64,000 bases of DNA, from the NCBI RefSeq assembly GCF_001425835.1, contig NZ_LMDP01000005.1, forward strand, positions 1 through 64,000, given 5' to 3'. The notes below the pieces were generated by a model. The model was given only the letters and a program-made list of their open reading frames with translations, searched no databases and was not told where the DNA came from. Position 1 is the stretch's first letter, and each line of letters starts with the position of its first letter. The DNA comes from Afipia sp. Root123D2. GTDB taxonomy: Bacteria; Pseudomonadota; Alphaproteobacteria; Rhizobiales; Xanthobacteraceae. Both the position numbers and the translations under genes were made by a program. This document shows positions 23,781-53,568 of the stretch, in pieces.

Positions 23781-24173
23781 TCAAGGCGCCGGCGTGATCG
23801 ACTGGACGGTATAGGTGCCGCCGGAGCCGCTCAGGGTGAAATTGACCTTGTCGCCGGTCTTCACCTTTGCGAGATCGACCGACGGTGCAACCGCGAACTC
23901 CATCGTCATGGCGGGCCAGTTGATGGCGGGAATCGGACCGTGATCGAAGGTGATCTTGTGATCCGCGGCGTTTAGCGCCGTGACCGTACCGGTGGCGGTC
24001 GCGCTCTTTGCGGCCTTCGCGTCGCTCATCGGCGCCATCTTCTTCATGTCAGACATGCCCGTGCCGCCTTGCGCGGACGCGGAGCCTATCTGCAGCGTCA
24101 GGGTTGCGCTGATTAGCGCGGCGGCAAGAACCCCGGGACGCGAGGTCCAGCGATGGTTGTCGACGAAGTACAT
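23781..24173 (-). CDS. cusF: CusF-like periplasmic copper-binding protein, second copy
   Basis: A 130-residue secreted protein. ATG 24173 has AGGAGA 6 bp upstream, so the longer frame starting at 24299 is rejected. After the signal (cleavage near SASAQ) a Met/Lys/Asp linker leads into the CusF fold: TGTVTALNAADHKITFDHGP, then WPAMTMEFAV. The His, the two Met of MTM and the Trp are the Cu+/Ag+ ligands of CusF. It is 148 bp downstream of cusA on the same strand, so it is probably in the cusBA-F operon. Confidence 0.92.
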   Translation of the reverse strand: MYFVDNHRWTSRPGVLAAALISATLTLQIGSASAQGGTGMSDMKKMAPMSDAKAAKSATATGTVTALNAADHKITFDHGPIPAINWPAMTMEFAVAPSVDLAKVKTGDKVNFTLSGSGGTYTVQSITPAP

Positions 24174-24320: not shown

Positions 24321-27300
24321 TCATTGCACGTTCTCCGCACGATGCAGGTCTAGCGTCGGCGTCAAATTCCGATGTCCACCGTCTTTCTCTTCGCCGTGCC
24401 ACGGCGAGGCTGGCAACCCGTATCCCTTGACGATCGCAAAGATGGCGGGAATGACCACGAGGGTCAGCACGGTCGACGAAACCATGCCGCCAATCATCGG
24501 CACGGCAATGCGCTGCATGACCTCCGAGCCGGTCCCCGTGCTCCAGAGAATCGGCACCAGGCCCGCCATGATAGCGACGACCGTCATCATCTTGGGCCGC
24601 ACCCGGTCCACCGCGCCGACCATGATCGCGTCGTACAGATCGACGCGCGTGAAAGGCTCGCAGGTAGCCGCGCGTTCCGCCTTCAATTCGGCCATGGCCT
24701 GTTCGAGGTAGATCAGCATGACGACGCCGGTCTCGGCCGCGACGCCGGCCAACGCGATGAAGCCAACGGCGACGGCGACCGACATGTTGAATCCCAGCCA
24801 CCACATCAACCAGATGCCGCCGACCAGCGAGAACGGCAGCGACAACATCACGATAAGGGTGTCGGCCAGTTTCCGGAAATTAAGATAGAGCAGCAGGAAG
24901 ATGATCAGCAATGTCACCGGCACGACGATCTTTAGCCGCGCTTCCGCGCGCTCCAGATATTCAAATTGCCCGCTCCAAGAGACATAATAGCCCGGCGGAA
25001 ACTTGACCTTCTGCGCGACCGCCTGCTGCGCCTCCGCGACGTAGCCGCCCAGATCGCGACCGGTAATGTCGACGTAGATGTAAACCGCGAGTTGACCGTT
25101 CTCGGTGCGAATGGACGTGGCGCCGCGGGTCAATTTCACGCTGGCGACCTGGCCGAGCGGAACGCTTCCGCCGGCCGCCAGCGGCACCTGGACATCGGTG
25201 CTGATCGTTTGCGGGCTGGAGCGCAACGCGCGCGGGTACCGGATGTTGACGGCATAACGCTCCCGGCCTTCGACCGTCGTGGTGACAGTTTCACCGCCGA
25301 GTGCCGTGGAGATCACGTCCTGGATATCACTGATCGTCAGCCCGTAGCGACCCAACGCCAAACGATCGGGGATGATCTCCAAATAGTATCCGCCGATCAC
25401 GCGCTCCGCGTAGGCGCTTGAGGTACCGGGCACCGATCTGACCACCCCTTCGACTTCGCGGGCGATCTTCTCCATTTCTCCAAGATCCTTGCCGAAAATC
25501 TTGATCCCGACGGGGGTGCGGATTCCGGTCGACAGCATGTCGATGCGAGCGCGGATCGGCATTGTCCAAGCATTCGACACCCCAGGAAACTGGAGCGCCT
25601 TGTCCATCTCGGCCTTGAGACTGTCGATCGTCACGCCGGGCCGCCATTCCGATTTCGGCTTCAAATTGATGATGGTCTCGAACATCTCGGTCGGCGCCGG
25701 ATCGGTCGCGGTCGAGGCGCGGCCCGCTTTGCCATAGACGGACGCGACTTCGGGAAACGACTTGATGATGCGATCCTGAGTCTGCAACAGCTCCGCCGCC
25801 TTGGTGATGGACAGACCGGGCAGCGTCGTCGGCATGTACATCAACGTGCCTTCATTGAGGCTCGGCATGAACTCGCTGCCGAGTTGGCGGGCAGGCCAAA
25901 TCGTCACCGCAAGCGCCACCAGCGCAAACACGATCGTCAATGTCTTGGCGTTGAGAACCCACCGGATCACCGGTCGGTACACCCAGATCAGGAACCTGTT
26001 CACCGGATTCTTGTGTTCCGAGATGATGCGCCCGCGGACGAAGATGACCATCAGGGCAGGCACCAGCGTGATCGAGAGCAGGGCGGCCGCGGCCATCGAA
26101 AATGTTTTAGTGTAGGCGAGCGGCCCGAACATGCGTCCTTCCTGCGCCTCCAGGGTAAAGATCGGCAGGAACGAGACGGTGATCACCAGCAAACTGAAGA
26201 ACAGCGATGGTCCGACCTCGCTCGCCGCATTGATTAAGATCTGCGTCCGCGGCGTTCCGGGCTCCGCGCGCTCCAGGTGCTTGTGTGCATTTTCGATCAT
26301 GACGATCGCTGCGTCGATCATGGCGCCGACCGCGATAGCGATGCCGCCAAGGCTCATGATGTTGGCGCCGAGCCCCATGAATTTCATGGCGGCGAAGGCC
26401 ATCAGGATGCCGACGGGGAGCATCAGAATGGCCACGAGGGCGCTGCGCAGGTGAAGCAGGAAAATGAAGCAAACGAAGGCAACGATGATGCTCTCTTCGA
26501 GCAGCGTGCCCTTGAGGGTCTCGATGGCCGCCTTGATCAGTTCGGAGCGATCATAGACCGAGATGATCTCGACGCCCTTGGGCAGGCTTGAAGCGATCTC
26601 GGCGAGGCGCGCCTTCACGTTGTCGATGACTGTGAGGGCGTTGGCGCCGAACCGCTGCAACGCGATGCCGCTGACAACCTCTCCGTCGCCGTTGAGTTCG
26701 GTAATTCCTCGCCGCTCGTCCGGACCGAGTTCGACGCGAGCAACGTCCCGCAATCGAAGCGGAGCCCCCGCGTCGGTCTTCAGCACGATGTTCTCGATGT
26801 CCTCGATGCCCCTGAGGTAGCCGCGGCCGCGGACGACGAATTCAAACTCCGACAGTTCCACGGTGCGACCGCCAACATCCATGTTGCTCGCCCGGACGGC
26901 ACTGCGGAGCTTGTCCAGCGAGATGCCCTGGGCGCGCAATTTCTGCGGATCGACGACGATGTTGTATTGCTTGACGAAGCCGCCGACGCTGGCCACTTCC
27001 GCAACGCCTTCGGCATTGGAAATGCCATACCGAACGATCCAGTCCTGGACCGACCGCAGTTCGGCGAGGGTCATGTTCTTGGCCACGACGGCGTACTGGT
27101 AGACCCAGCCCACGCCGGTTGCGTCGGGCCCAAGAGTGGGTGTCACGCCGGCAGGAAGCCGGCGCGCTACGGTGTTGAGATATTCCAACACGCGCGAGCG
27201 TGCCCAGTAGGGATCCGTGCCGTCCTCGAAGATGACGTAGACAAAGGACACGCCGAAAAACGAGAAGCCCCGCACCACCTTCGATTTCGGCACCGTCAGC

Positions 27301-27518
27301 ATCGCGGTGGTCAATGGATAGGTCACCTGATCCTCGACGACCTGCGGCGCTTGCCCGGGATATTCGGTGTAGACGATCACCTGCACGTCGGAGAGATCGG
27401 GGATGGCATCGAGCGGCAGGGTGCGCAGCGCATAGATGCCCGCCATGACTGCGAATACCGTCCCGATCAGGACGAGCATGAGATTCCGCGCCGACCAGGC
27501 GATCAGGCGGGCGATCAT
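24321..27518 (-). CDS. cusA: CusA-type heavy-metal efflux RND pump
   Basis: The 1065-residue inner-membrane pump of a tripartite Cu+/Ag+ exporter. Twelve helices and two large periplasmic loops are present. Helix 4 has GAMIDAAIVMIEN with the proton-relay Asp. Periplasmic Met residues in LMYMPTTLPGLS and AWTMPIRARIDM correspond to the methionine relay of CusA. PEYPGQAP-like YTEYPGQAPQVVEDQVTYPL is the family start region. Its ATG overlaps the cusB stop by 4 bp. Two truncated cusA copies lie at 37285 and 52445. Copper/silver class is well supported; a Co/Zn/Cd pump (CzcA) is unlikely. Confidence 0.96.
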   Translation of the reverse strand: MIARLIAWSARNLMLVLIGTVFAVMAGIYALRTLPLDAIPDLSDVQVIVYTEYPGQAPQVVEDQVTYPLTTAMLTVPKSKVVRGFSFFGVSFVYVIFEDGTDPYWARSRVLEYLNTVARRLPAGVTPTLGPDATGVGWVYQYAVVAKNMTLAELRSVQDWIVRYGISNAEGVAEVASVGGFVKQYNIVVDPQKLRAQGISLDKLRSAVRASNMDVGGRTVELSEFEFVVRGRGYLRGIEDIENIVLKTDAGAPLRLRDVARVELGPDERRGITELNGDGEVVSGIALQRFGANALTVIDNVKARLAEIASSLPKGVEIISVYDRSELIKAAIETLKGTLLEESIIVAFVCFIFLLHLRSALVAILMLPVGILMAFAAMKFMGLGANIMSLGGIAIAVGAMIDAAIVMIENAHKHLERAEPGTPRTQILINAASEVGPSLFFSLLVITVSFLPIFTLEAQEGRMFGPLAYTKTFSMAAAALLSITLVPALMVIFVRGRIISEHKNPVNRFLIWVYRPVIRWVLNAKTLTIVFALVALAVTIWPARQLGSEFMPSLNEGTLMYMPTTLPGLSITKAAELLQTQDRIIKSFPEVASVYGKAGRASTATDPAPTEMFETIINLKPKSEWRPGVTIDSLKAEMDKALQFPGVSNAWTMPIRARIDMLSTGIRTPVGIKIFGKDLGEMEKIAREVEGVVRSVPGTSSAYAERVIGGYYLEIIPDRLALGRYGLTISDIQDVISTALGGETVTTTVEGRERYAVNIRYPRALRSSPQTISTDVQVPLAAGGSVPLGQVASVKLTRGATSIRTENGQLAVYIYVDITGRDLGGYVAEAQQAVAQKVKFPPGYYVSWSGQFEYLERAEARLKIVVPVTLLIIFLLLYLNFRKLADTLIVMLSLPFSLVGGIWLMWWLGFNMSVAVAVGFIALAGVAAETGVVMLIYLEQAMAELKAERAATCEPFTRVDLYDAIMVGAVDRVRPKMMTVVAIMAGLVPILWSTGTGSEVMQRIAVPMIGGMVSSTVLTLVVIPAIFAIVKGYGLPASPWHGEEKDGGHRNLTPTLDLHRAENVQ

Positions 27519-29035
27519 TTCGATTTCTCTCCGTCTGTAAATGCCTGCAAGGCGGATTTCAGGTTGCTTTCGGCATCGATCAGGAAGTTGGCGGCAACGA
27601 CAACGCGATCGCCTTCGCCGACCCCTTCGCGGATCTCAGTGTAGTCCTCGCCGTGCGTGCCGACCTTGACTTCACGCGGCTCGAAACGGCCTTCGCCTTT
27701 GTCGATGAAAACGATCTGCCGCGCTCCGGTATCGATCACCGCGCCGTTGGGTACCGCGATCACGGGCTTTTCCGCACCGAACGCGATTTCAACATCGGCG
27801 AACATGTCGGGAAGAAGCACGTCGTCCGGATTGGGTAGTTCGATACGCACCTTGGTGGTGCGCGTCTCGGTGTTGACCTGGGGATAGATCAAGGCGACGG
27901 ATCCCTTGAATTCACGTCCCGGCAGGCTGCGGAGCTTGATGGTTGCCGCCGAGCCGATCTTCACGGCATCGATATCCTGTTCGGCGACGTCGGCGATCAC
28001 CCAGATCACGGAGGTGTCGGCCAGCCGAAACAGCACGTCGCCCGGCATCGCCCGCATGCCTTCGACCGCCGTTCGTTCCAGAATCACGCCATCGCGGGGG
28101 GCCGTCCAGGTAATGGTCAGCGGCACCGTTTTGGTGCGTTCGATGTCGGCGATCACGTCGGCGGGCACGGCAAGGTTTTCGAGTCGCCGCCGCGCGCCCT
28201 CGACCAGTTGCTTGCGCCCCGCGAGATTGGCTGTTCCAGCACTGTCCCCGACGATGGAGAGATATTGGGCGCCGGCGGATGCCACATCCGGGGAATAAAG
28301 TTTCAGAAGGGGCTGTCCCTTGGTGACATGATCGCCTGTCGTAACGTTCTCGACGCTTTCGATGAACGACTGCGCCCGCAACGAAATGACGGCCACGCGC
28401 CGCTCATCGAGCTTGATCGTTCCGGGGGCGCGGATGGGCCTCGTCACGGTGCGCAGAGCGGCGGGCTCGGAGCGCACGCCGGTGCGCTGCAGCTTGCCCG
28501 GTGAAATCTGGATCGTGGAGGCGTCGTTCTCACCCTCGTAGACGGCGATGTAGTCCATTCCCATCGAATCCTTTTTCGGGACGGGAGAGGTGTCGGGAAG
28601 ACCCATTGGATTGCGATAGAAGAGAATTCGCTTGGCTCCGGAGTTGGCGTCCTGGGTTGGCGCTGCGGTTTCCCGAGGATTGTCGAAGCTGACGTCTTCG
28701 CTGGTATGAACGGCGATATACGATCGCCCGTCCGGCGTCGTCCTGGCATCCTTGGAATAGAGCGCCTTGCCGTCGGGGTCGCGGTAGTAAATGACCGGAC
28801 CTGAGCCTGCGGGTTGGCTGGGGTGGGATCCGAGCATGGCTGCGATGCGTGGCGGGATCCAGTCGGGCAACGCCGGATCGGAGTGGCCGAGACGATAGCC
28901 AAGTCCCAGCGTTGCGGCGAGGGCGCTGATCGCGAACACCATGAGCACGATCCGTTTCGCGGTCGATCTTCCGGCTCGGGCGCGGCGCGTCATATGTCCA
29001 TCTTCGAATGGATGGTAATCAGTCAACTTGTCCAT
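27515..29035 (-). CDS. cusB: CusB-type periplasmic adaptor of the heavy-metal RND pump
   Basis: The 506-residue membrane-fusion protein linking CusA to an outer-membrane channel. After an N-terminal membrane segment (about 28-48) it has two YHS-like short metal motifs, VIYYRDPDGKALYS and ILFYRNPMGLPDTSPVPKKDSMGMDY, the latter being the heavy-metal-binding domain of CusB. The barrel-sandwich and beta-barrel parts follow (GTIKLDERRVAVISLRAQ, GDHVTKGQPLLKLYSP, APRDGVILE). ATG 29035 is preferred; ATG 28993 is an alternative. A SigF-type promoter lies about 200 bp upstream (29237-29262). Confidence 0.93.
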   Translation of the reverse strand: MDKLTDYHPFEDGHMTRRARAGRSTAKRIVLMVFAISALAATLGLGYRLGHSDPALPDWIPPRIAAMLGSHPSQPAGSGPVIYYRDPDGKALYSKDARTTPDGRSYIAVHTSEDVSFDNPRETAAPTQDANSGAKRILFYRNPMGLPDTSPVPKKDSMGMDYIAVYEGENDASTIQISPGKLQRTGVRSEPAALRTVTRPIRAPGTIKLDERRVAVISLRAQSFIESVENVTTGDHVTKGQPLLKLYSPDVASAGAQYLSIVGDSAGTANLAGRKQLVEGARRRLENLAVPADVIADIERTKTVPLTITWTAPRDGVILERTAVEGMRAMPGDVLFRLADTSVIWVIADVAEQDIDAVKIGSAATIKLRSLPGREFKGSVALIYPQVNTETRTTKVRIELPNPDDVLLPDMFADVEIAFGAEKPVIAVPNGAVIDTGARQIVFIDKGEGRFEPREVKVGTHGEDYTEIREGVGEGDRVVVAANFLIDAESNLKSALQAFTDGEKSK

Positions 29036-29236: not shown

Positions 29237-29281
29237 TTCGCGCCGCATACCGAACCGGTTACAGATTCACGACGACGTGAA
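29237..29281 (-). promoter_or_regulatory. SigF-type promoter plus inverted repeat, upstream of cusB
   Basis: On the minus strand GTAACC (29262-29257) and CGAA (29240-29237) are 16 bp apart. Three bp upstream of GTAACC is a perfect inverted repeat, TTCACG-N4-CGTGAA (29281-29266). It reads toward cusBA and predicts a leader of roughly 195 bases in which I see no supported gene. Confidence 0.8.
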
Positions 29282-29351
29282 AGCTTCGCCCAAGTGGTCC
29301 TTCGTGCTGCGAAACAATAGGGCGGCGATGAACGGTCCACCGCGGCTGGTT

Positions 29352-29612
29352 TCATCCGCGGCCGTCTTTTTGTTCCGGCGTATTCTGCTTGTCGTGACGC
29401 TCGTTGCTGGATTTCATCATATGATTGCAGCTTTCCATCATTTGCTGCATTTGGCCCATCATGTTCATCATTCCCTGTGAGCCGTTGCCCATCATGGGTT
29501 GATTGTTTTCCGTCGGTTTCTTCGGCGGCGTCGACGTCTCGTCCGCCCGGACGGCTGCGGAAGCCGCCAAGGACGCAATCAATGTGAGCGGGATGAGCGT
29601 GGTGATCTTCAT
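29352..29612 (-). CDS. Met-rich periplasmic protein
   Basis: An 86-residue protein; ATG 29612 follows a GGAAAGG-type site and begins a Sec signal (MKITTLIPLTLIASLAAS). The mature part is Met-rich: QPMMGNGSQGMMNMMGQMQQ and MMESCNHMMKSS. The spaced Met with one Cys and His suggest Cu+ binding. It is downstream of the CxxC membrane protein at 29943 and shares its SigF-type promoter. A longer paralogue with the same partner is at 43767. Confidence 0.82.
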   Translation of the reverse strand: MKITTLIPLTLIASLAASAAVRADETSTPPKKPTENNQPMMGNGSQGMMNMMGQMQQMMESCNHMMKSSNERHDKQNTPEQKDGRG

Positions 29613-29643
29613 CTTGTTGCCTTTCCTAAAGTTTGGACTCGCG

Positions 29644-29943
29644 TCACTGGTCAACGCGAGTTGCGGTGCGGTTTGGTGCAGACTGCGACGCTTCGCGTCG
29701 GTCGCATCCCGAGGCATTGCCACGAGAACACAGGTGCAGGGCGCACATCGCCAGACAGGGGAGTGCGGGCAGCAGGAACGGTCCGATGCCCGACGCAACG
29801 AGCCAAGGCCAGCCGAGCGCGGCTCCGGCAAGCAACGCCGACGTGGCCAGAATCAGCCACAACGTGCGGCTGCGGAAGCCAAACGTGCCGGGCATCCGAC
29901 GGCGCAGATCTCGCCTATCCAACGCCGACGTCAACCACGTCAT
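29644..29943 (-). CDS. Small Cys-containing inner-membrane protein
   Basis: A 99-residue protein with two helices, WLILATSALLAGAALGW and LVASGIGPFLLPALPCLAMC, and cysteines in LPCLAMCALHLC. Two ATGs, 29961 and 29943, both follow an ACAGGAGAC site because a 13-bp stretch is repeated; I chose 29943, which has the better spacing. The protein matches the one at 43340 (LVAAGLAPVILSTLPCLVMC), and in both places a Met-rich secreted protein follows. The Cys may bind Cu+ in the membrane. Confidence 0.75.
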   Translation of the reverse strand: MTWLTSALDRRDLRRRMPGTFGFRSRTLWLILATSALLAGAALGWPWLVASGIGPFLLPALPCLAMCALHLCSRGNASGCDRREASQSAPNRTATRVDQ

Positions 29944-30028
29944 GGTCGCGTCTCCTGTCATGGTCTCCTGTCATGCACGACAATTGCACTTTGGGCGCCC
30001 GCTTCAGAGGGCGAGCGTCATCTATTAG

Positions 30029-30073
30029 TTCGCGAAGGGGCGCACGCCGGTTACATGCTCACGCCTTCGTGAG
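30029..30073 (-). promoter_or_regulatory. SigF-type promoter plus inverted repeat, upstream of the Cys/Met protein pair
   Basis: Minus-strand GTAACC (30054-30049), 16-bp spacer, CGAA (30032-30029), with a perfect CTCACG-N4-CGTGAG (30073-30058) 3 bp upstream. The -10 box is about 70-85 bp from the start of the membrane-protein gene. Confidence 0.82.
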
Positions 30074-30241
30074 ATCGACCGGATGAGCGGTTTTCTCGGC
30101 ACGGACAAACAGGTGATATGCCGTCTTCCATCGTGGCTGCACTCATCGCCGCCGCCGCGACCTTCAGCATTCATGTTGGTGTAGACGAAGTAAGAATTTG
30201 GTCTTTCCACCGCGCAATGCCCGGGCGCGCCCAATGCCAGC

Positions 30242-30883
30242 CTACCAACGCAGCAGTTTGGGGCCGAGCACGGCGCCGGCGACCGTGCACAACACGATCG
30301 TGCCCCCATACCAGAGCGCAATGAAGGGAAGCAGGTCATCCATGCAATGCAAAGCATAAGCGGTCGCGCTGACGCCGCCGGCGACCAGCCCGGCGAGCGC
30401 ACCGGTGTGGACCAAATCCGTCGGGGCCGCGAGGCGGACCGCCGCCATGATTGCGGCGAACGGTACGACCGCCACCGTGGGGATGGCGATCAGGCATTCG
30501 AGCCAGTAACTGCCGAACACCATGGTCTCCCAGTGCGACCGCGGTGCCGTGGCAAGACTGATGGCTGCGATGATCATGGACGCGAGAAACGGCAGGACCG
30601 TGACGGCAAACCGGACCCCAAATTCGCCGCCAGGACGGATGTATTTGACAAGGTAATGCGAGGCCAAGATCACGATTGACAAACTGAAGGTCAGTTTTGC
30701 GAGTAGGAAGATTTTGGCGTGCATCTCTCTGAGGTCGGCGCGAACGCCGAGGACGAAGACCACCGCCAGCAGGGATGCCGCGGCTCCTATCAAGATTGCA
30801 TTCCGGACGTTCCGGACGACCTCCCGCGTGTCGACCGGGTCGACCTGCGAACTGAGCATGGAAATCAATTCGTTGGTTTTCAC
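30242..30883 (-). CDS. nrsF: NrsF-type anti-sigma factor (DUF1109)
   Basis: A 213-residue inner-membrane protein with six helices that holds the ECF sigma factor inactive at the membrane. Two cysteines, C130 (SYWLECLIAIP) and C180 (YALHCMDDLLPF), sit where Caulobacter NrsF has the conserved pair (C131 and C181, from memory) needed to sense Cr, Cd and other thiol stress. A third, C199, is in the last helix. The start overlaps the sigma stop by 4 bp (ATGA), as expected for a sigma/anti-sigma pair. A frameshifted relative is at 51014. Confidence 0.92.
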   Translation of the reverse strand: MKTNELISMLSSQVDPVDTREVVRNVRNAILIGAAASLLAVVFVLGVRADLREMHAKIFLLAKLTFSLSIVILASHYLVKYIRPGGEFGVRFAVTVLPFLASMIIAAISLATAPRSHWETMVFGSYWLECLIAIPTVAVVPFAAIMAAVRLAAPTDLVHTGALAGLVAGGVSATAYALHCMDDLLPFIALWYGGTIVLCTVAGAVLGPKLLRW

Positions 30884-31434
30884 GCTTTGGTCTCCCGTGC
30901 AATCAATGCCGTGAGGATCTTCAGCCCACGGTGAATGTTGACCTTGACGGCGGATGGCGACATCCCGCTACGATCGGCGGCTTCGGTCACGCTCAAGCCG
31001 TCGAGCTTCACGTATTGGAGCGAAAGTCTCATTCGTTCCGGTAACCTTTCAAAGAGCTTGGCGAGATCGAGCTGGCTTTCGGCGGCGGCGTTGTCGTTGG
31101 ATGCCAGGATGTATTCGGCGTTTTCCAAGGGTACGTGCGCCGTCGTGGTCCTGGTGCGTCGCAAATGGTCGATAAGCTTGTAGCGGGCAATAGCGTACAC
31201 CCACGGCGTCAGCGGCTGCTCCGGATCGTAGGTGTGACGTTGCATATGGATGACGATCAATGCCTCCTGCACGAGATCTTCAGTTTCTTCGGCCGCGCGT
31301 CCGGATCGCAAAAGTCTGCTCTTGTAGTAGCTTCGCAGATGTCCGCTCAAAGCCGTCAGCAGCGATCGATGCGCATTGGAATCGCCTTCGAGGCTCGCCG
31401 TCATGAGTGCTTTGAGCTCGGACTCCTTTGTCAT
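30880..31434 (-). CDS. sigF: ECF sigma factor, SigF (NrsF-controlled) type
   Basis: A 184-residue ECF RNA polymerase sigma factor. Region 2 has ETEDLVQEALIVIHMQRHTY and PLTPWVYAIARYKLIDHLRR; region 4 has FERLPERMRLSLQYVKLDGL and the helix-turn-helix SVTEAADRSGMSPSAVKVNIHRGLKIL. Paired with NrsF it belongs to the group of Caulobacter SigF. Its own promoter (31450-31475) has the SigF consensus, so it is autoregulated. Six more identical-form promoters within 8 kb mark a local regulon for metal and redox stress. Confidence 0.94.
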   Translation of the reverse strand: MTKESELKALMTASLEGDSNAHRSLLTALSGHLRSYYKSRLLRSGRAAEETEDLVQEALIVIHMQRHTYDPEQPLTPWVYAIARYKLIDHLRRTRTTTAHVPLENAEYILASNDNAAAESQLDLAKLFERLPERMRLSLQYVKLDGLSVTEAADRSGMSPSAVKVNIHRGLKILTALIARETKA

Positions 31435-31449
31435 CTCTCCCTCATTTGA

Positions 31450-31494
31450 TTCGAACGGAGAATGCCCGCGGTTACACGCTCACGGGATCGTGAG
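31450..31494 (-). promoter_or_regulatory. SigF-type promoter plus inverted repeat, upstream of sigF-nrsF
   Basis: Minus-strand GTAACC (31475-31470), 16-bp spacer, CGAA (31453-31450), and a perfect CTCACG-N4-CGTGAG (31494-31479) 3 bp upstream. The -10 box is 16 bp from the sigF ATG, so the leader is very short. Confidence 0.85.
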
Positions 31495-31827
31495 TGCAGT
31501 GACCGCGACAGGCGGAGGTCAGGAGAGATCACAAAAAGATAGCACATCGGCATGGTTCCTCGATCAGACCGTTCAACGCTTCGATCCGACCGAGGATTAT
31601 AGCGTGCTTTTGACGAGGGCAAGCTGCGGCGCCGCAACGAATTCCTCGGCCATCGAACAGTTCTGCGAGTGGTTCTGGATGAAGACGGCGCTTGTGGCGA
31701 CAGAGCTGGCTTTCGACGTTAACCGGCCGAGCGGCCCGGGGGGATCGGAACTGAGGAATATGGGAGGTTTGCACGAAGGGCACGTCTCGGTCGCCGCGTC
31801 TGCCCGACTCCAAAGTATGCGGTCGCG
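31495..31827. other. Divergent intergenic region between sigF and a small secreted protein
   Basis: About 330 bp without a supported gene, lying between two outward-facing SigF-type promoters. No further motif is recognised here. Confidence 0.5.
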
Positions 31828-31871
31828 CTCACATCGTCGTGACCTGTAACCCGCCCGATCTCTCGCTCGAA
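31828..31871 (+). promoter_or_regulatory. SigF-type promoter with degenerate inverted repeat, upstream of small secreted protein
   Basis: GTAACC (31846-31851), 16-bp spacer, CGAA (31868-31871). Upstream is CTCACA-N4-CGTGAC, a weaker copy of the inverted repeat, here 1 bp closer to GTAACC than at the other sites. The -10 box is about 58 bp from the ATG at 31929. Confidence 0.75.
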
Positions 31872-31928
31872 CTCATCTACATGCGATCCATTCAGGATCT
31901 GACGATCAAGCCGAGCCGGGAGACGAAA

Positions 31929-32201
31929 ATGGGCAAATCAAGCCTGGTTGCATTTCTGCCGCTGTTGCTGATCGCTGCCGCGTCGCCAAGCTTTGCGCAC
32001 ACGAACGGGATCGAAATGGGTTCGGCTCTCCGAACCAAGCCTGCGGAGCGGGCGGCTTCCGTAGTCTCGCGCGACGGCTGGGTCGGTACCCTGCGTTCGC
32101 TTCCGAAAACTTGCAGCTATCGCGGCGGACCGAAAACAGGCATGTGGTCGTGCGTACTAAACGTACGACGTTATGAACGGCGGAAGCCTTCGTTGAACTG
32201 A
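31929..32201 (+). CDS. Small secreted protein under a SigF-type promoter
   Basis: A 90-residue protein. ATG 31929 has GGGAGA upstream and begins a clear Sec signal (MGKSSLVAFLPLLLIAAASP, cleavage SFA-H). The mature part carries two Cys (KTCSYRGG and WSCVLNV) and a basic C-terminus. The mature N-terminus starts His-Thr, a possible metal-binding amino terminus. I do not recognise the family. The promoter location makes it a likely SigF regulon member. Confidence 0.68.
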   Translation: MGKSSLVAFLPLLLIAAASPSFAHTNGIEMGSALRTKPAERAASVVSRDGWVGTLRSLPKTCSYRGGPKTGMWSCVLNVRRYERRKPSLN

Positions 32202-32705
32202 TTTCCGGGTGTGCCCATCGCCTAGCATGACGGCATCCCTCAGGAACGAACCCACATCATGAATCTTTCATGCGGGATGGCGATTCAGTATCCAAAGCTC
32301 GATTAGATCCCAATAGCGGGCCATTTCAACTGCGTGGTCATGAGAGAATAAAAAGAGAATATTGGCGATCTGACAGGAGCATGCTGAAGTCGTTACGGTT
32401 GATTCCAGGACCGATGCAGAACGACGTCGTTGCTCAACCTGAGCGATGTTAATTTTCACTGCACTAGGCGTTGACCGCGCGCATTCTGGGAACGCAACCT
32501 TGGTTTTCACGACGGACACAAGCATGACGGACCGCAGAAGGATATCCCGGCGAATATGCCCGCAAGAATGTTAGGCGATCGGGCGGCCGTGATCTTTTGC
32601 ATTTCCTGGTGAGATCGGAAGGTTCTGTCCTGCCGAGATGCAGGAGGTTATGGTTTCTTGGTGTCCCTGGAGCGCGTGATCGCGACTTTACGCTCTGCGA
32701 GTTTG
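32202..32705. other. Non-coding or decayed stretch, nothing recognised
   Basis: About 500 bp with frequent stops in all frames and lower GC than the neighbours. No family match can be made. It precedes an arsH remnant and may be rearrangement debris. Confidence 0.45.
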
Positions 32706-33011
32706 TTTGGCCGATTCTTTCCTCTCGCTGTAACGATCTGTGAAATATCCGGTTACGCGGCATGTCAACAACGTGAACTTTATAGGCTCTTCCCTGAGGA
32801 CGACGGCTTCATCGACCCGGCGGCATCGAATTGTTCATAGGCGTTTGCGACCGATCACTGGTTGGGAAATCGCGATCGTCCGCATCCATCGGCCGAGGAC
32901 ACGGATTGATTGACAGCATTGAACGATTGGAGAACCGCCGCACGCCTGCATGACGGCCAGCATCTTGTGCGTCGGCAGCACCGCGCCGTACGACAGAAAT
33001 TAATCCCGTCC
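32706..33011 (-). pseudogene. arsH fragment
   Basis: DNA from about 32716 to 33010 closely follows 54496-54810 of the intact arsH, for example CTCGCTGTAACGATC, TCGAATTGTTCATAGGC, CATCCATCGGCCGAGGAC and TGCATGACGGCCAGC occur in both. The copy has a deletion of about 25 bp near 32800 and several small indels, so no long frame survives. It lacks both ends of the gene. Confidence 0.75.
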
Positions 33012-33056
33012 GAAGGCCCGTCCCATTGAGCGTGACGCCGGCTTCCAGATGGCCGG

Positions 33057-33173
33057 TTACCGTGACGGTATCCCACGAAGATGGCAACGCTTTGGGGCCT
33101 TACCATATCCGCCGCCAACGCGGCAGCGGAAGAGACCCAACGCGACCAGTCCTAGTAGCACGGCATTCTTCAT
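33057..33173 (-). CDS. Possible short lipoprotein-like peptide
   Basis: Thirty-eight codons from ATG 33173 with GGAG upstream. It opens with KNAVLLGLVALGLFRC, like a truncated signal or lipoprotein leader, followed by a basic tail. It may be the start of a gene whose remainder was lost at the junction with the arsH fragment. Low certainty. Confidence 0.25.
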   Translation of the reverse strand: MKNAVLLGLVALGLFRCRVGGGYGKAPKRCHLRGIPSR

Positions 33174-33240
33174 TGCAGCTCCGCCCACGGCAACGCTAGC
33201 CTCAACATTCGCTTTCACTGGAATGCTGCCACGAAAAGCA

Positions 33241-33630
33241 TCATATCCTTTGATGTGGCGAGCTGTGATGCAGAGCCCAGAGTTCGACAACGGCAATTGT
33301 TGCGACGATGATTCCCACCACGAGATGAACCTGCATCGCCATGGCATCGTCGTGGAAGCTGAGAACCCAAGGGCAGACCGCCAACCACGCGCCGATAGTG
33401 AGGTTGATCCATTCCTCCTGTTCGAAGAACATCGGAATCGAGACCGGCTTGAGGAGGTCGGCAATCGAAAAAATAGCGACGATGCCGATGGCGGCACCGG
33501 CCATCCAAGACGTATGCCATCCGAGCCGAGAGCTGAAGCCGAATATCCAGGGCGATAGAAACAGAAACCCGCCCAGGGCGAGATTGGCGACGTCTATAAT
33601 AGCTTCGGTTTTCCAGCTTTGCTTGAGCAT
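33241..33630 (-). CDS. SPW-repeat membrane protein
   Basis: A 129-residue membrane protein with four helices arranged as two SPW repeats: GGFLFLSPWIFGF and AWLAVCPWVLSF. ATG 33630 has GAGG upstream; the longer start is rejected. SPW proteins are common in rhizobia and of unknown function. The tail is His-rich (LHHSSPHQ). Its promoter is not obvious. Confidence 0.85.
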   Translation of the reverse strand: MLKQSWKTEAIIDVANLALGGFLFLSPWIFGFSSRLGWHTSWMAGAAIGIVAIFSIADLLKPVSIPMFFEQEEWINLTIGAWLAVCPWVLSFHDDAMAMQVHLVVGIIVATIAVVELWALHHSSPHQRI

Positions 33631-34175
33631 AGCGACCTCGCTTTGTGAAGGCCACACGATGTAGTTACAATGACACTATAGCCCCTTTAACCTGGAATTT
33701 TCCAAGGATTTTCGGACCGGTCACGTTGGGCAGCGGGCGTCGCTGTTCGATGCGATCGTCGCCAGGGCCGGCCCCGCCCCGAAATCGCGGCGGCCAGACA
33801 GCCGTGGCCAGCAGAAATCCCGCTCTCGCCTTCATCTCGTGTAACCGGGCGGTCGCTTGACCCGAACTTATTTGAGAAGCGCATGCAAAGCGCAATGGAA
33901 AAGCGCAAGGACCGCAACTGCCCTAACCCACGAGGGATGGCGATACCCGAGGAGCTGCGGTCGATTCATTGGTGCGCGCCGCACGCTTCTGTTTCACCGG
34001 CCGCCGGCAAACTATCTGCAGCGCGAGAACGAGAAAATCGCGATCGCGCTCTAGCACAAAGGGGCCAACCGACGGCGGTCAAGCTGTCGACTGCAAACAC
34101 TACGGGAGGTCGCATCGCCGGGGAAAATCCGCGACGGCGTGCGAATCATTGAGTATCGACGACGGAGGCAGATGG
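33631..34175. other. Region upstream of the methyltransferase, with a SigF-type promoter
   Basis: About 545 bp without a recognisable gene. It contains the SigF-type promoter at 33841. A frame of 89 codons from 33883 is open but shows no domain or signal peptide, so I do not call it. Confidence 0.4.
33841..33866 (+). promoter_or_regulatory. SigF-type promoter without a clear inverted repeat
   Basis: GTAACC (33841-33846), exactly 16 bp, CGAA (33863-33866). The upstream bases CTCTCG-N4-CATCTC only faintly recall the inverted repeat of the other sites. The next supported gene is the methyltransferase at 34176, so the leader would be about 300 bases. Confidence 0.6.
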
Positions 34176-34826
34176 ATGCATGCAAACATATTCTGGGGAG
34201 GCATAGCGATCTCGATCGTCGTCGTGTCATGGTTTTTCTATCGTCTTGTCGTGCCGAGCAACTGGCGTGAATGGAGCCGGGCGGGACTCGTGCAAGCATT
34301 CATCATTGCGTTTTATGCCGAGATGTATGGATTTCCCGTTACGATCTATCTACTGACGCGGATTTTCGGTCTGGACGTCGCCGGCAACTTTTGGGACGAG
34401 AATCTCTGGGTTTATCTAACCGGCGACTGGTGGGTGATGCCGGTTTCGATGGCGATTGGCTACACGGTTGTATTTTCGGGGATCACGCTGCTGATCGCAG
34501 GTTGGCGTGAGGTTTATCGAGCGACTGCAAAAAGACGGCTCGCCTCCGAGGGGCCTTACGCTTTTGTGCGCCATCCGCAATATAGCGGCATTTTCCTCGC
34601 CCTTTTTGGTGAAGGCGTCGTGCATTGGCCGACAATATTTTCACTTGCGGCCTTTCCTATCATCGTCATCGCCTACCAGCGTCTGGCTCGAAAGGAGGAG
34701 AGGCAGATGCTCATACGGTTCGGCGATGAATATCAGAACTATCAAAAGCGCGTACCGATGTTCTTGCCGGATCGTTGCTGTTGGCGTGCAGCTCTTGGTG
34801 ACCGGCCGTCTCGAGAGAAGCAATAG
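34176..34826 (+). CDS. Isoprenylcysteine carboxyl methyltransferase-like membrane protein
   Basis: A 216-residue membrane protein with about five helices. The C-terminal part has the ICMT/phospholipid methyltransferase pattern: GPYAFVRHPQYSGIFLALFG, then RLARKEERQMLIRFGDEYQNYQKRVPMFLP. ATG 34176 has GGAGG upstream. Bacterial members methylate membrane lipids or small molecules and are frequent in metal-resistance clusters. A SigF-type promoter lies about 310 bp upstream. Substrate unknown. Confidence 0.85.
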   Translation: MHANIFWGGIAISIVVVSWFFYRLVVPSNWREWSRAGLVQAFIIAFYAEMYGFPVTIYLLTRIFGLDVAGNFWDENLWVYLTGDWWVMPVSMAIGYTVVFSGITLLIAGWREVYRATAKRRLASEGPYAFVRHPQYSGIFLALFGEGVVHWPTIFSLAAFPIIVIAYQRLARKEERQMLIRFGDEYQNYQKRVPMFLPDRCCWRAALGDRPSREKQ

Positions 34827-35080
34827 CAGGAGCGACGACAAAAAGAAATTTTAGCAGTGTATTTGGACATGCGATAGAGCGTCGCGCGCAAAATTGCGAA
34901 AGCTCTTTGCGGAATGGAGCAAGGGGACCGGAGGTCAAGGAAAGCGAAAGGGACTGGTCAATGACCGCCGCGGGCTCGTCGATGAGCATTCGATTACCTT
35001 GATCGACGCCGCCGCAGTAGAAAACTCAACGAAATAGCTAGCCCAGAACGAGCGTCCGCGCTTCCTGATGTCGCCGTTTT

Positions 35081-36319
35081 CTACCGTTCGTGAGAGAAGC
35101 CGATTCGGCCCAACCAAGTCGGACGGTTGGTCGATGTTTCAGTATCATCGCTGTTGGCAGCATTACTCGCATCTTTTCCAGTGCGTCCCGCTAGGAAAAG
35201 CGGTCGTGGTATATCCAATGTTTTGGACCAAGACACAAAGTACGCAACTGCAGTCATCAGCGAAAGCCCAGCTACGCTGACGAGGATTTCTGTCCACACT
35301 GTGCGTGAGCCGGTCTCCAATATGAAATGGGCCAAAAATGATAGAAGAACTCCCGAACAAAAGACGTTTAATGATTGCTCACCGCATTTGATTAGAGGCT
35401 GAAGAATGCGAGATTTCAAACCGCGCCAGTTCCTCGGCAGAAATCTTGTGACAAAGAGTGCAAAGAATACGAAGTGGACCACGCGGTAAGGGGCGAGATT
35501 GGTCTTGTCGTTAGGATTGAATGCGTCAAAAAGCCATTTTGGGAGTTCGTTTGCCAGATATGGGATATGAACTGTCATCGTCATCACAAGCGAAAACAGC
35601 AGATAGGCGGCTCCAACGTAACGAAGGGCTCGCGAATTGGTGAGGGGACGCAATCGGATTGCAGCTACGGTATACCACGCACCAAGGACAAACAGTAGTT
35701 GCCATGCAAAAGGATTAAAATACCACGCCCCCCGGGGGTAGGAGGATAAATTCCAGCCGAGATCTCGTGCAACGAAGTATATGCACAATGATCCTAGCAT
35801 CGTAGCGTTGGGCAATCGCAACATAAGCCATAGAATTGGCGGCATACCTGCCAAAAGCACGATGTAAAGGGGGAGCACATCCATGTTGAGGGGTTTGAAA
35901 CGGAGGAGCAAGCCCTGGGTAAGGACATCGAACGGGTTGTGCAGCAACCCGGCTATATTGAATTCATTTATGAGCTCGGGATTAGCGTAGCTTTGTGCGA
36001 CATGGCCGATCACGGCTACATACAACACAAACAAGAAAATGTGTGCAACGTAGAGCCGCCAGACGCGCCTCATCAACCAAGACGTTCCCGCAACAAAACC
36101 GCGCTGAATCATGATGTTCGCGCAGACCAGAGATGTCATATAGCCTGACATAAATATGAAGAGTTCCGCTGCATCGCTGAAGCCATAGTTTCTGGTCGTG
36201 ATCCACGCGACAACGTTGTTTGGTATATGGTCAAGGAAGATCGCCCAGTTAGCAATGCCGCGGAAGAGATCAAGGCGAAGGTCGCGTCCGCTCATTGGAG
36301 GGGTGGCATTAATGCGCAT
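35081..36319 (-). CDS. opgC: OpgC-family membrane acyltransferase, second copy
   Basis: A 412-residue membrane protein paralogous to the one at 17090: both share RDLRLDLFRG-ANWAIFLDH, TTRNYGFSDAA, LRFKPLN-DVLPLYIV, WYFNPF-WQL and the DKTNLAPYRVVHF region. It is more AT-rich than its paralogue, pointing to a separate origin. The C-terminal 35 residues are polar and variable. A SigF-type promoter with inverted repeat is at 36596-36640, about 280 bp upstream, so this copy is probably stress-induced. Expected to acylate periplasmic glucans. Confidence 0.87.
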   Translation of the reverse strand: MRINATPPMSGRDLRLDLFRGIANWAIFLDHIPNNVVAWITTRNYGFSDAAELFIFMSGYMTSLVCANIMIQRGFVAGTSWLMRRVWRLYVAHIFLFVLYVAVIGHVAQSYANPELINEFNIAGLLHNPFDVLTQGLLLRFKPLNMDVLPLYIVLLAGMPPILWLMLRLPNATMLGSLCIYFVARDLGWNLSSYPRGAWYFNPFAWQLLFVLGAWYTVAAIRLRPLTNSRALRYVGAAYLLFSLVMTMTVHIPYLANELPKWLFDAFNPNDKTNLAPYRVVHFVFFALFVTRFLPRNWRGLKSRILQPLIKCGEQSLNVFCSGVLLSFLAHFILETGSRTVWTEILVSVAGLSLMTAVAYFVSWSKTLDIPRPLFLAGRTGKDASNAANSDDTETSTNRPTWLGRIGFSHER

Positions 36320-36595
36320 GCGTATCGTCTTTTATTTTCTAAACGCTTGCTTGACGCGGGTCTGTTTGCGATCGCAGGGATTTTCGAAGAAGCGGAACAC
36401 GATTGGAAAACCCCGTACCGGGGATTGGGTACGTTGTGGGTGGATTGTTTGCGTCTCAGTCGATGTACGCGATGAGAATCGTTTTCGTGCGACGACCATG
36501 GCCCCCGAGTCCAGCGCTAACTTGTTCGCCTACATTTAAGGTCACCGCTCACAAGCGGTCTCGTGACGCCGGCTGTTAGCGTTCCTCACAATAAG
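36320..36595. other. Long leader of the second opgC
   Basis: About 275 bp between the SigF-type promoter and opgC with no supported gene. It includes CCCCG-TAC-CGGGG near 36415, which could form a small hairpin. Confidence 0.4.
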
Positions 36596-36640
36596 TTCGG
36601 AGATATCGCTATGTCGGTTACAGGTTCACGCTGACGTGAG
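36596..36640 (-). promoter_or_regulatory. SigF-type promoter plus inverted repeat, upstream of the second opgC
   Basis: Minus-strand GTAACC (36621-36616), 16-bp spacer, CGAA (36599-36596), with CTCACG-N4-CGTGAA (36640-36625) 3 bp upstream. It faces opgC. Confidence 0.8.
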
Positions 36641-36786
36641 AGGCTAGGCGCCGCTTCTCGCTATGGTGATCATAACCGCGGTTAAGTCTTGAGTGGCTTG
36701 CACGACAGCGTCTGCACGATGCGCATTAGGTGCTGTTCCACTGGCTGGTCCATTGGGCACTACAAACCCGGCCAATTCTTTTCAGT

Positions 36787-36831
36787 GTCACCTATCCGTG
36801 AACGTGTAACCTGTCCGGAGCGCTTTGCGAA
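36787..36831 (+). promoter_or_regulatory. SigF-type promoter plus inverted repeat, upstream of the small membrane protein
   Basis: GTAACC (36806-36811), 16-bp spacer, CGAA (36828-36831), with GTCACC-N4-CGTGAA 3 bp upstream: one arm intact, one mismatched. It is divergent from the opgC promoter 166 bp away. Confidence 0.8.
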
Positions 36832-36974: not shown

Positions 36975-37379
36975 ATGATGGGACCGAATGAAAAATCGAC
37001 AGGTACACGGCCTGACTCTTCTGCGACTGTAAAGTGGGATAAATGGCTCGGTGGATGGGGCTGGATGGTGGTCTGCGTGCTCGTCATCGTCGGCGCCATT
37101 CTGGCTGTCAGCGGCGAGCTCGATGGCAAGCTGCCTGCTGGCGCCTTGTTACCCCTTTTGTTTGTACTGCCATGCGCGCTCATGATGTTTATGTGCATGA
37201 AGAACATGGGCGGCAATCAAAGCGGAGCGCACAGGTCAATTTCAAGAGCCGATGGACGTCGAAGATCAGCTGTGATTACATCCACGAGTTCCCACCGGGT
37301 CATTACGTGGTCTGGAGCGGCGGCCAGTAGGAATATCTCGAGCGTGCCATCGCGCGCCTCGAGATCGTCGTACCGGTGA
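36975..37379 (+). CDS. Small DUF2933-like membrane protein with a run-on tail
   Basis: Start ATG 36975 has AGGAGAGA upstream. Residues 1-80 form a plausible protein: a polar start, helix WGWMVVCVLVIVGAILAVSG and helix ALLPLLFVLPCALMMFMCMK ending in KNMGGN, similar to DUF2933 proteins of copper operons with their terminal Cys/Met/His. After about residue 87 the frame runs on out of frame through the cusA remnant, so the last 47 residues are likely spurious and the natural C-terminus was lost by the insertion or deletion. Under a SigF-type promoter. Confidence 0.65.
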   Translation: MMGPNEKSTGTRPDSSATVKWDKWLGGWGWMVVCVLVIVGAILAVSGELDGKLPAGALLPLLFVLPCALMMFMCMKNMGGNQSGAHRSISRADGRRRSAVITSTSSHRVITWSGAAASRNISSVPSRASRSSYR

Positions 37380-37789
37380 CGCTGATCATCATCTTCCTCT
37401 TGCTCTTCCTCAATTTCCGCAAGCTCACGGAAACGCTCATCGTGGAGGTAAGGGAAGAACGTGTCCGGCAGGGCAGGCCGTTTACCCGGATGGACCTGCA
37501 CTAGGCCATCATGCGCGGAGCTGTGGAGCGCGTGCGGCCGAAGATGATGACGGTTGTTCCCATCATGGCGGGCCTGGTGCTGATCCTCTGGAGCACCGGC
37601 ACCGGCTCGGAGGTGGTGCAGCGTATCGCGGTGCCGATGATTGGCGGAATGATGTCGTCGACTATGCTCACCTTGGTGGTAATTCCGGCGATCTACGGTC
37701 TCATCAAGGTATGGCGGCTACCGACGAAGTATGCCTCAATCTCGGAGGACGGGATGGAATCCGTACTTCTTCGGGAGGCTGCCGAGTGA
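37285..37789 (+). pseudogene. cusA remnant (C-terminal part, internal deletion and stops)
   Basis: Translates as FPPGHYVVWSG, a stop, EYLERAIARLEIVVPVTLII, then, after loss of the segment covering helices 9-11, MDLH[19 protein letters not shown], [20 protein letters not shown] to the end. This matches the last third of cusA at 24321. Two in-frame stops and a deletion of about 70 codons make it non-functional. A small Met-rich membrane peptide follows, as after the second remnant at 52445. Confidence 0.85.
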
Positions 37790-50964: not shown

Positions 50965-51013
50965 TCGCTGCTACGAGGAATCGATATAGCTATTGGCGCG
51001 AGAAAGGAAGGCC

Positions 51014-51650
51014 ATGACAACCGATCAGCTGATTGAATTACTCGCCGCGGACCTCACGCCGGTGGGGCGGCGGCGTATCATGTGGACGATGATCCTCGCC
51101 GTCGCGCTCGGCACAGCGGCAGCTTTCGGCGCGATGCTCCTGCTTTTTAATCCTCGCATTGAATTTCCGAGTGGAAGAACCCTGGGCACCCTGTTGATCA
51201 AGATCTTCTTTGCGTCAGGCGTTGTTGCAACTGCGGCGGTATTCCTGCCTCAGCTAACACGTCCTGAAGCGCGGATGTACAGTCTTCCCAAGCTCGTCTT
51301 CATTCCATTCGCTACGGTCGCAGTATCAGCTACCGTGGCTCTCGCTTTGTCTCATTGGTCTAGCTGGGCCGGCATGATCGTCGGGCGGGATTGGACGACA
51401 TGTCGCGATTCCGGTGCTCGCGGTCTTGCCTTTCGCGTGCATTATCTGGGGCCTGCGCGTGGGGGCGTCAACCGATCCAATGCGCGCCGGCGAAATCGCC
51501 GGTCTCGTGGCAGGCGGCCTTGCCGCATTGGCGTGCGCCTTCCCTTGTGTGGATGGGGCGCTTCCATCGATCGCACTTTGGTACAGCTTCCCGATCGTCA
51601 TCTGTGCCGTCGTGGGGAGCAAGCTCGGCCCGGGCCTGCTGCAGTGGTGA
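51014..51650 (+). pseudogene. nrsF-like anti-sigma gene, frameshifted
   Basis: The first frame gives 130 residues similar to NrsF (MTTDQLIELLAADLTPVGRR, helices, WAGMIVGRDWTTC). The rest, IPVLAVLPFACIIWGLRVGA to ALPSIALWY and KLGPGLLQW, lies in another frame. A single-base shift near 51403 explains it. Both NrsF cysteines would be present (DWTTC and FPCVDG). There is no sigma gene beside it. A sequencing error is possible, but without it the anti-sigma is broken. Confidence 0.78.
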
Positions 51651-51763
51651 TTTGCTTGATGTCGGCGTCGTACGTCTTGGTCGACGAACAGTTGCTATGC
51701 TGCGCCACACGGACAGGTCCGTTGGCGGCCCGTACACCAACTTAACGCCGGCGGAGACGAACG

Positions 51764-52444: not shown

Positions 52445-53568
52445 TTGTTCGAGACCGTGATCAACCTCAAGCCGAAGCGGCAATGGCGCCCCGGCGCGAC
52501 GATCGATAGCCTCACCGCCGAAATGGACAAGGCGTTGCAATTCCCGGGCGTCTCCAATGCCTGGACCATGCCAATCAAGGCCCGCATCGACATGTTGTCG
52601 ACCGGAATCCGGACACCGGTCGGCGTCACGGTGATCGGCCCCGATCTGGATGGGATCGACAAGCTGGCGAAACAAGTCGAGCGGGTTCTGAAGGCGGTGC
52701 CGGGCACATCGTCGGCTTATGCCGAGCGCGGCATCGGCGGATACTATCTCGAGATCACGCCCGATCGGATGGCGCTGGCGCGTTACGGCATTATGATCCA
52801 GGACGTGCAGGACGTGATCGCCACCGCACTGGGGGGCAGACGGTGACCACGACCGTTGAGGGTCGCCAGCGCTTCACCGTCAATACCAGCATCGCGTTTC
52901 CACCGGGCTACTACGTGGTCTGGAGCGGCCAGTACGAGTATCTCGAGCGGGCCACCGCACGGTTGAAAATCGTAGTGCCGGTGACGCTGCTGATCATCTT
53001 TCTGCTGCTGTACCTCAACTTCCGCTCCATCCCCGAAACCATGATCGTCATGCTGTCGCTGCCGTTTGCCCTGGTTGGTGGCCTGTGGCTGATGTGGTTG
53101 TTGAACTTCAACCTGTCCGTCGCCGTCGCCGTCGGATTCATCGCACTGGCAGGCGTCGCCGCCGAAACCGGGGTGGTTATGCTGATCTATCTCAATCAGG
53201 CCTTTGATGAGGTCAAATTGCGATGCACACTCAAGGACCGGAAGGTTACGCGTCGAGACCTTTATGATGCGATCATGGAAGGCGCGGTCGAGCGGGTGCG
53301 GCCGAAGATGATGACGGTCGTCGCCATCATGGCGGGCCTGCTGCCGATCATGTGGAGCACCGGCACCGGTTCCGAAATCATGCAGAGGATCGCGGTGCCG
53401 ATGATCGGTGGCATGATCTCGTCGACGTTGCTGACGCTGATCGTGATCCCGGCGATCTTCGGCTTGGTCAAGGGATACCGACTTCCGAACGGCGGCAGCG
53501 ATCAATCTGCAACGCCTTCGGCTCCTGTAAAGAGAGTGACACAGCATATTCCGGAACCAGCCAAATGA
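52445..53568 (+). pseudogene. cusA remnant (second), frameshifted with internal deletion
   Basis: MFETVINLKPKRQWRPGATI and the following 120 residues match cusA from about residue 600. A shift in a G run near 52835 moves to the frame MTTTVEGRQRFTVN, where about 80 codons are missing before FPPGYYVVWSGQ; the rest to the end is intact, with [13 protein letters not shown]. The N-terminal 600 residues are absent. The second part (52843-53568) could still be translated but lacks the pump's first half. Confidence 0.88.

Follow-up and report, generated by a model that had tools for sequence, protein, structure and literature searches.

SigF and EcfF are extracytoplasmic function (ECF) sigma factors of the ECF16 group, held by an anti-sigma factor, NrsF or OsrA, until stress (PMC3511200, PMC3420878); in Bradyrhizobium japonicum the EcfF-OsrA promoter type is GTAAC(g,a)-N14-15 (PMC3420878). 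In this work we have analysed a window of 64,000 nucleotides from Afipia sp. Root123D2 (contig NZ_LMDP01000005.1, positions 1 to 64,000), part of a genome of 4.8 Mb assembled into seven contigs, in which an inverted repeat, TCACG-N4-CGTGA, flanks promoters of the SigF/ECF16 type (GTAACC-N16-CGAA), four perfect and two imperfect copies lying just upstream of them. As judged by comparison of sequences, this repeat is probably a box for the response regulator CenR, which would bind it and co-activate transcription together with the polymerase carrying SigF or EcfF.

CenR, which belongs to the OmpR family, is the response regulator of an envelope two-component system, CenK-CenR. In Rhodobacter sphaeroides, chromatin immunoprecipitation sequencing (ChIP-seq) gave the CenR site TGA-N8-TGA, with 28 of the 31 sites directly upstream of the -35 and with rpoH1, a TIGR02302 protein, msrA and cenR itself among the targets; sites upstream of the -35 accompany activation, while those of repressed units lie between the -35 and the start (PMC9275681). 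In Sinorhizobium meliloti, the srlA promoter carries AGTCAC-N6-GTGACT directly upstream of the -35, centred at -42, where mutations of the arms reduce activity and to which CenR binds in gel shifts; a related site, ATTCACGACGTTGTGAAT, occupies the same position at SMc01226, and only four such repeats are reported for that genome, none of them at an ECF16 gene (PMC9561847).

The repeat and its match to CenR sites

The repeats and promoters of the window are given below, where gap means the bases between CGTGA and GTAAC (the 3 bp to GTAACC counted in a first-pass annotation of this DNA correspond to gap 4) and rank refers to the CenR matrix.

29266-29281, minus strand: perfect repeat, predicted CenR box; gap 4 to the -35; CenR matrix rank 7
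29237-29262, minus strand: promoter GTAACC-N16-CGAA, facing the cusB-like and cusA-like genes
30058-30073, minus strand: perfect repeat, predicted CenR box; gap 4; rank 2
30029-30054, minus strand: promoter GTAACC-N16-CGAA, facing a small membrane protein gene
31479-31494, minus strand: perfect repeat, predicted CenR box, at the sigF promoter; gap 4; rank 1
31450-31475, minus strand: promoter GTAACC-N16-CGAA of sigF-nrsF
31828-31843, plus strand: imperfect repeat CTCACA-TCGT-CGTGAC, degenerate; gap 3; rank 4
31846-31871, plus strand: promoter GTAACC-N16-CGAA, facing a small secreted protein gene
36625-36640, minus strand: perfect repeat, predicted CenR box; gap 4; rank 5
36596-36621, minus strand: promoter GTAACC-N16-CGAA, facing the gene at 35081-36319
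36787-36802, plus strand: imperfect repeat GTCACC-TATC-CGTGAA, distal arm damaged; gap 4; rank 15
36806-36831, plus strand: promoter GTAACC-N16-CGAA
33841-33866, plus strand: seventh, promoter-like GTAACC-N16-CGAA site, without a repeat

The four perfect repeats have the exact form YTCACG-N4-CGTGAR, each 3 bp from a GTAACC read on the minus strand; their positions and spacing, the fifth copy with one damaged arm and the same spacing, and the degenerate sixth copy 1 bp closer are all as the first-pass annotation had described them. The ECF16 promoter form tGTAACc-N16-CGAA is exact at seven window sites, and all six repeats lie directly upstream of the -35, as activating CenR sites do.

A matrix built solely from the 31 R. 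sphaeroides CenR sites (PMC9275681) placed the six window repeats, on both strands, at ranks 1-9, 11, 15 and 18 of 127,972 positions, while none of 500 column-permuted matrices placed four or more of the window repeats in the top 20 and two placed at least one. Across the wider set of loci described below, the median matrix score was 13.64 at promoters with a perfect repeat (n = 76), against 4.38 at promoters of the sigma gene itself that lack one (n = 34) and 4.29 in random stretches (n = 400, ten of which score 10.5 or more); 13 of the 21 other promoters reach 10.5. The repeat also fits the pattern of CenR sites, with half-sites in 10-bp phase, as TCAC-N6-GTGA or TGA-N8-TGA. Furthermore, two known CenR targets, rpoH (here rpoH2) and the TIGR02302 gene, carry the repeat in this group, and an Msr gene is a further shared target, msrB in locus L184 and msrA in R. 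sphaeroides. The earlier suggestion of a dimer-sized regulator site beside the polymerase, most simply for an activator, gains support from this match and from two other alphaproteobacteria, in which the CenR sites of activated genes adjoin the -35 on its upstream side (PMC9275681, PMC9561847); the accompanying remark that no description of the element was known has to be withdrawn, as publications of 2022 describe CenR sites of this form.

Ten OmpR-type regulators are encoded in the genome. One of them, L253, which lies on another contig, has aspartates at positions 11-13, 51 and 56, as does R. sphaeroides CenR, finds one strong match in each of 145 of the 151 genomes, and is 93-96% identical across the genus members listed. 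On these sequence features, L253 is likely to be the CenR of this genome.

Distribution, spacing and targets of the repeat

With two mismatches allowed, the window holds 15 matches to the repeat against a shuffle mean of 12.6, which is no enrichment, and we therefore put weight only on exact sites and their position. A genome search, which the first-pass annotation had proposed, found the exact Y/R form at four places, all within the window; one mismatch gave 42 places against 15 for a read-backwards control, and the core TCACG-N4-CGTGA gave nine against two. These nine are the four window SigF sites, one at ecfF, and four elsewhere: before rpoH2, before a TIGR02302 gene and a gene divergent from it, which share the site, and, by reading, before phhB and before a glycosyltransferase-like gene. 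A regulator or operator dedicated to SigF, as had been offered earlier, is contradicted by the repeats at rpoH2 and the TIGR02302 gene; these have no ECF promoter adjoining, which also rules out the repeat as part of the sigma factor's own recognition. GTAACC-N16-CGAA occurs nine times in the genome, seven of them in the window. With spacers of 15 to 17 pooled, the genome has 28 matches and the control 29, and what stands out is therefore the clustering; a slightly looser promoter pattern has eight matches in the window, with 1.4 expected.

The full pattern TCACG-N4-CGTGA-N4-GTAACC-N16-CGAA was found in 72 stretches of a one-genome-per-species public collection, where by our own arithmetic about 0.5 would be expected in 257 billion bases. 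Nearly all belong to Hyphomicrobiales, the records being from Afipia, Bradyrhizobium, Nitrobacter, Tardiphaga, Microvirga, Devosia and metagenome-assembled genomes of the same families, together with single metagenome-assembled genomes labelled Proteobacteria, bacterium and Caulobacterales. These 72 loci, selected for having at least one repeat-promoter, contain together with the window 131 distinct GTAACC-N16-CGAA sites, 76 of which have a perfect repeat at gap 4 (identical sequences were entered once in the promoter, gap and matrix-score counts). The sigma gene's own promoter has a perfect repeat in 5 of 40 cases and lacks it in 35, with one more having nine of the ten arm bases; this class was assigned by a motif script, and at least two sites put under 'other' (L083 and L085) look by reading like promoters of the sigma gene. 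Target promoters within the same loci carry the repeat where the sigma gene's own promoter lacks it, so that the repeat is chiefly a feature of target promoters. The first-pass annotation would have taken a lack of the repeat at orthologous sigF promoters as refuting the element. Such a lack is literally found for most sigF genes seen, and yet, since the targets carry the repeat, it does not refute the element. Among the 20 target-type sites without a perfect repeat at gap 4, at least eight of ten arm bases are present at gap 4 in eight and at gap 3 in three, with no near-repeat at the other gaps from 0 to 11.

A looser search of 200 relatives (gap 0-29, EcfF-type -35 and -10) gave 92 sites in 42 genomes and 13 of 114 genera, and the reversed pattern gave none. 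In the 80 distinct sequences from these genomes, for which intact arms were required, 37 different four-base centres occur over the 13 genera, and the gaps form clusters at 4-7, 10-12 and 15-18: gap 4 in 29, 5-7 in 7, 10-12 in 14, 15-18 in 28, with single cases of 20 and 26. Nearly all copper-family promoters have gap 4, so the fixed phase and spacing noted earlier hold within that family; outside it the gap varies (CcdA-like promoters in the fetched stretches carry the repeat at gaps 6, 7, 10 and 11), and a fixed helical phase as a general rule was ruled out by this spread. In Nitrobacter winogradskyi (L086, about 2910-2945), a single repeat lies between two divergent SigF-type promoters, at gap 4 from each, and so offers a natural test case for a symmetric dimer that serves two polymerases.

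With one mismatch allowed, the repeat and -35 were found together in 31 of 200 relatives against 11 for the control, so single one-mismatch matches outside the genus are partly due to chance. A class-wide search found 4 of 385 genomes, two known Hyphomicrobiales and two outside the order (G553, G563); spread beyond the order is not above chance among these 385, as the read-backwards control also gave two genomes (G303, G439). Six relatives contain 43 exact repeats against nine for the control, nine of the 43 being already known as ecfF, CcdA-like or rpoH2 sites; of 20 inspected, 15 are intergenic and 5 lie inside genes, a share that overstates the intergenic fraction because the 14 repeats outside the inspected set are mostly G+C-rich. 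The repeat-promoter strings of the window recur unchanged in G003, in G077 (another genus of the family), in L082 and in L130, pointing to a recent transfer of the copper cassette.

No dedicated regulator encoded beside the repeats was supported: across the 72 loci (up to 8 kb each) and the window, the gene clusters that recur in most loci are non-regulatory apart from the sigma factor. Of the 38 clusters common to at least three loci, 30 were scanned, and 25 of 59 matching families were inspected. The NrsF cluster is present in 63 loci, and the regulator-like members among the 60 clusters listed are MerR (7 loci), a protein that reads as XRE-like (5) and a CsoR-type repressor (3, also in the window).

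Beyond the copper family, the targets read from 20 fetched stretches include bufferin operons, CcdA/DsbD-like genes (scoring under the DsbD model cut-off), msrB (L184) and ecfF-type operons, some stretches having an unclear target; in L177 a BufB-like protein scores 381 bits (cut-off 310) and its BufA-like peptide falls under the cut-off. The 30 ecfF loci have a perfect repeat at gap 15, 16 or 17 in 20 and nine of ten arm bases at gap 14 in one; the repeat is absent in seven, and the promoter was not recognised in two. Bradyrhizobium diazoefficiens SZCCT0138 has four sites: two of the copper type, one at ecfF and one, by reading, before a bufferin-type gene. The rpoH2 repeat was matched in 18 genomes with varying centres (three fetched, one confirmed as RpoH by NCBIfam), and the repeat at the TIGR02302 gene in three genomes; the search that gave the rpoH2 matches had hits in 28 of 200 genomes, against four for its control. 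Other intergenic repeats precede, by reading, DUF2852-like genes, efflux adaptors, a phasin and a porin. Beside the repeat at the DUF2852-like genes of L202 and L216 we read a second palindrome, TGTAAAT/ATTTACA or GTGAATGT/ACATTCAC, at which a further regulator may bind.

In the window and loci L059-L130, the 45 nt that follow the predicted start of a gap-4 promoter had a mean folding z of -1.13 (79 sites, 25 below -1.5), compared with -0.10 in control stretches 150 nt further on (77 stretches, 8 below -1.5), z being taken from mononucleotide shuffles. Transcripts from repeat-bearing promoters thus tend to start with a hairpin, and this 5'-end stem may protect or control the messages.

The genes of the window that concern us are the following:

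30880-31434, minus strand: ECF sigma factor of SigF type (Pfam Sigma70_r2 and r4_2; NCBIfam PRK12539, 313 bits, cut-off 171)
30242-30883, minus strand: anti-sigma factor NrsF (Pfam NrsF, 194 bits, cut-off 26.8)
27515-29035, minus strand: CusB-like adaptor, first gene after the 29237 promoter (by reading, and by a cluster representative matching HlyD_D23)
24321-27518, minus strand: CusA-like efflux pump (cluster representative matches ACR_tran)
23781-24173, minus strand: CusF-like copper-binding protein (Pfam CusF_Ec, 95 bits, cut-off 27)
29644-29961, minus strand: small membrane protein, first gene after the 30029 promoter; no Pfam match
31929-32201, plus strand: small secreted protein, first gene after the 31846 promoter; no Pfam match
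35081-36319, minus strand: membrane protein after the 36596 promoter, OpgC-like by reading only

By Pfam, an ECF sigma gene is followed by an NrsF-family anti-sigma gene at 30242-31434; the latter scores 79.5 of 300 bits on the NCBIfam NrsF equivalog, under its cut-off. Among the copper genes of the region, CusF is assigned by Pfam, and CusA, CusB and a multicopper oxidase by reading. Relatives of the small membrane protein follow repeat-bearing promoters in other loci. A second NrsF-family gene lies at 50993-51745, with a Pfam match spanning only model positions 1-121 of 204 and no sigma gene seen adjoining it, and short open frames at 36975-37789 and 52445-53568 resemble parts of CusA-type efflux pumps, apparently being fragments of further copies.

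Proposed mechanism and rival explanations

In the mechanism that we propose, a CenR dimer would bind TCACG-N4-CGTGA at the copper-family promoters with the box centred some 41-47 bp before the transcription start. Transcription of ecfF begins 6 bp beyond the -10 box (PMC3420878), and by that spacing a gap-4 box is centred near -41; if GTAACC is instead numbered -35 to -30, the centre falls at about -47, and either position is one at which activators sit next to the -35. The dimer would touch the RNA polymerase carrying SigF or EcfF, and this contact would raise transcription of the genes for copper and periplasmic-oxidation defence. NrsF or OsrA would determine whether the sigma factor is free, and CenR would add a second, envelope-derived input at the output promoters. 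It is conceivable, and we put it forward with some doubt, that copper cassettes acquired horizontally carry a sigma factor of their own and connect the promoters it serves to the host's conserved, elsewhere essential CenR, forming an AND gate in which full output needs both the freed ECF sigma factor and phosphorylated CenR, with the sigma's own promoter usually outside.

Several points weigh against co-activation by CenR. Both the binding and its activating sign draw their support from sequence, and the assignment of L253 from its aspartate positions and its presence across genomes. Six genomes have no L253 match, two of which (G008 and G032, with assemblies 83% and 92% complete) carry the repeat next to a GTAAC box. 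While cenR itself is among the R. sphaeroides CenR targets with a site (PMC9275681), no full box occurs within 300 bp upstream of cenR in any of 29 relatives, 22 of which have a half-degenerate box, TCACG-N6-TGT. The R. sphaeroides sites are described as direct repeats, whereas those of the window are inverted, and the gap spread outside the copper family excludes one rigid activator geometry. In addition, in a B. japonicum osrA mutant without stress, ecfF is up 18.8-fold and bll1027 up 89.5-fold (PMC3420878); since loss of OsrA alone induces EcfF targets, CenR is not limiting in this species, and would be either already active at rest or only a modulator.

The same box might instead let CenR repress or damp these promoters, for instance keeping the copper genes quiet while the envelope is healthy. 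A CenR repressor would more easily tolerate the variable gap outside the copper family, and it would fit the fact that ECF promoters usually need no activator. R. sphaeroides CenR does repress some genes (17 of 59 predicted units; PMC9275681), and boxes near start sites suggest CenR repression in S. meliloti (PMC9561847). Nevertheless, we consider repression unlikely here, as the window boxes lie upstream of the -35, where published CenR sites go with activation, and the gap of copper-family promoters is nearly constant. That the reader is EssR, a response regulator with sites in common with CenR in Brucella, or a CenR-EssR pair, seems to us rather improbable; in Brucella ovis the two proteins interact and 33 ChIP-seq peaks are common to CenR (47) and EssR (65) (PMC10746171), and with ten OmpR-type regulators in this genome a second one could read the same site, but the presence of EssR here stays an assumption, and a matrix derived from CenR ChIP-seq cannot separate CenR from EssR.

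The geometry of the repeat is not peculiar to CenR. Sites of TetR or NarL/FixJ type have the form 5-4-5 or 6-4-6, and a half-site spacing of 10 bp suits many families, which speaks for an unrelated dimeric regulator, whereas a CRP/FNR-type site was set aside on half-site orientation. We give an unrelated reader little credence in view of the independent CenR matrix with its permutation control, the shared rpoH and TIGR02302 targets, and the lack of a regulator gene common to the loci among the clustered genes scanned. Finally, the repeats could be relics copied with mobile promoters and without present function, as the unchanged window strings in other genomes, one of them in another genus, might suggest; with so many different centres between intact arms, and near-repeats at the 20 target-type promoters confined to gaps 4 and 3, this is scarcely credible.

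Comparison with known systems

The B. japonicum EcfF-OsrA system shares the sigma/anti-sigma family and the promoter type of the window, and in the available extract no repeat is described at EcfF promoters, the one inverted repeat of the text belonging to ecfQ (PMC3420878); the B. diazoefficiens strain examined here does carry the repeat at ecfF. In Caulobacter crescentus SigF-NrsF, GTAACC-type promoters precede DUF2282/DUF692 (bufferin-type) operons, the extra regulator of sigF depends on the region -37 to +37 and not on sequence upstream of the -35, and an inverted repeat is not mentioned in the extract (PMC3511200). PMC4842269 mentions ecfF once and no inverted repeat, the words SigF, ECF and bufferin are absent from PMC11389396, and ECF, SigF and copper are absent from the text of PMC9275681. 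The literal repeat sequence had no match in the literature searched, nor did we find a link of CenR to SigF, EcfF, NrsF, OsrA or bufferin, most subscription-journal papers lying outside this search.

The promoters described here appear to be shared by two distinct stress circuits. ECF sigma factors are commonly regarded as sufficient for the promoters they serve. If a conserved CenR box does stand at many of this group's ECF16 output promoters, single promoters would join the two main strategies of envelope sensing, the CenR regulon would extend to copper defence, bufferins and methionine repair, and mobile metal-resistance cassettes would gain a route into core regulation. On the CenR side, the R. 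sphaeroides CenKR regulon has half-sites in 10-bp phase whose sequence is nearly identical to that of the window repeats (PMC9275681). The S. meliloti srlA site is, like the window repeats, an inverted TCAC-N6-GTGA directly upstream of the -35, and unlike them it is not reported with a SigF/EcfF-type -35 in the extract (PMC9561847). The box and CenR are already known; what would be new is their direct link to an ECF regulon.

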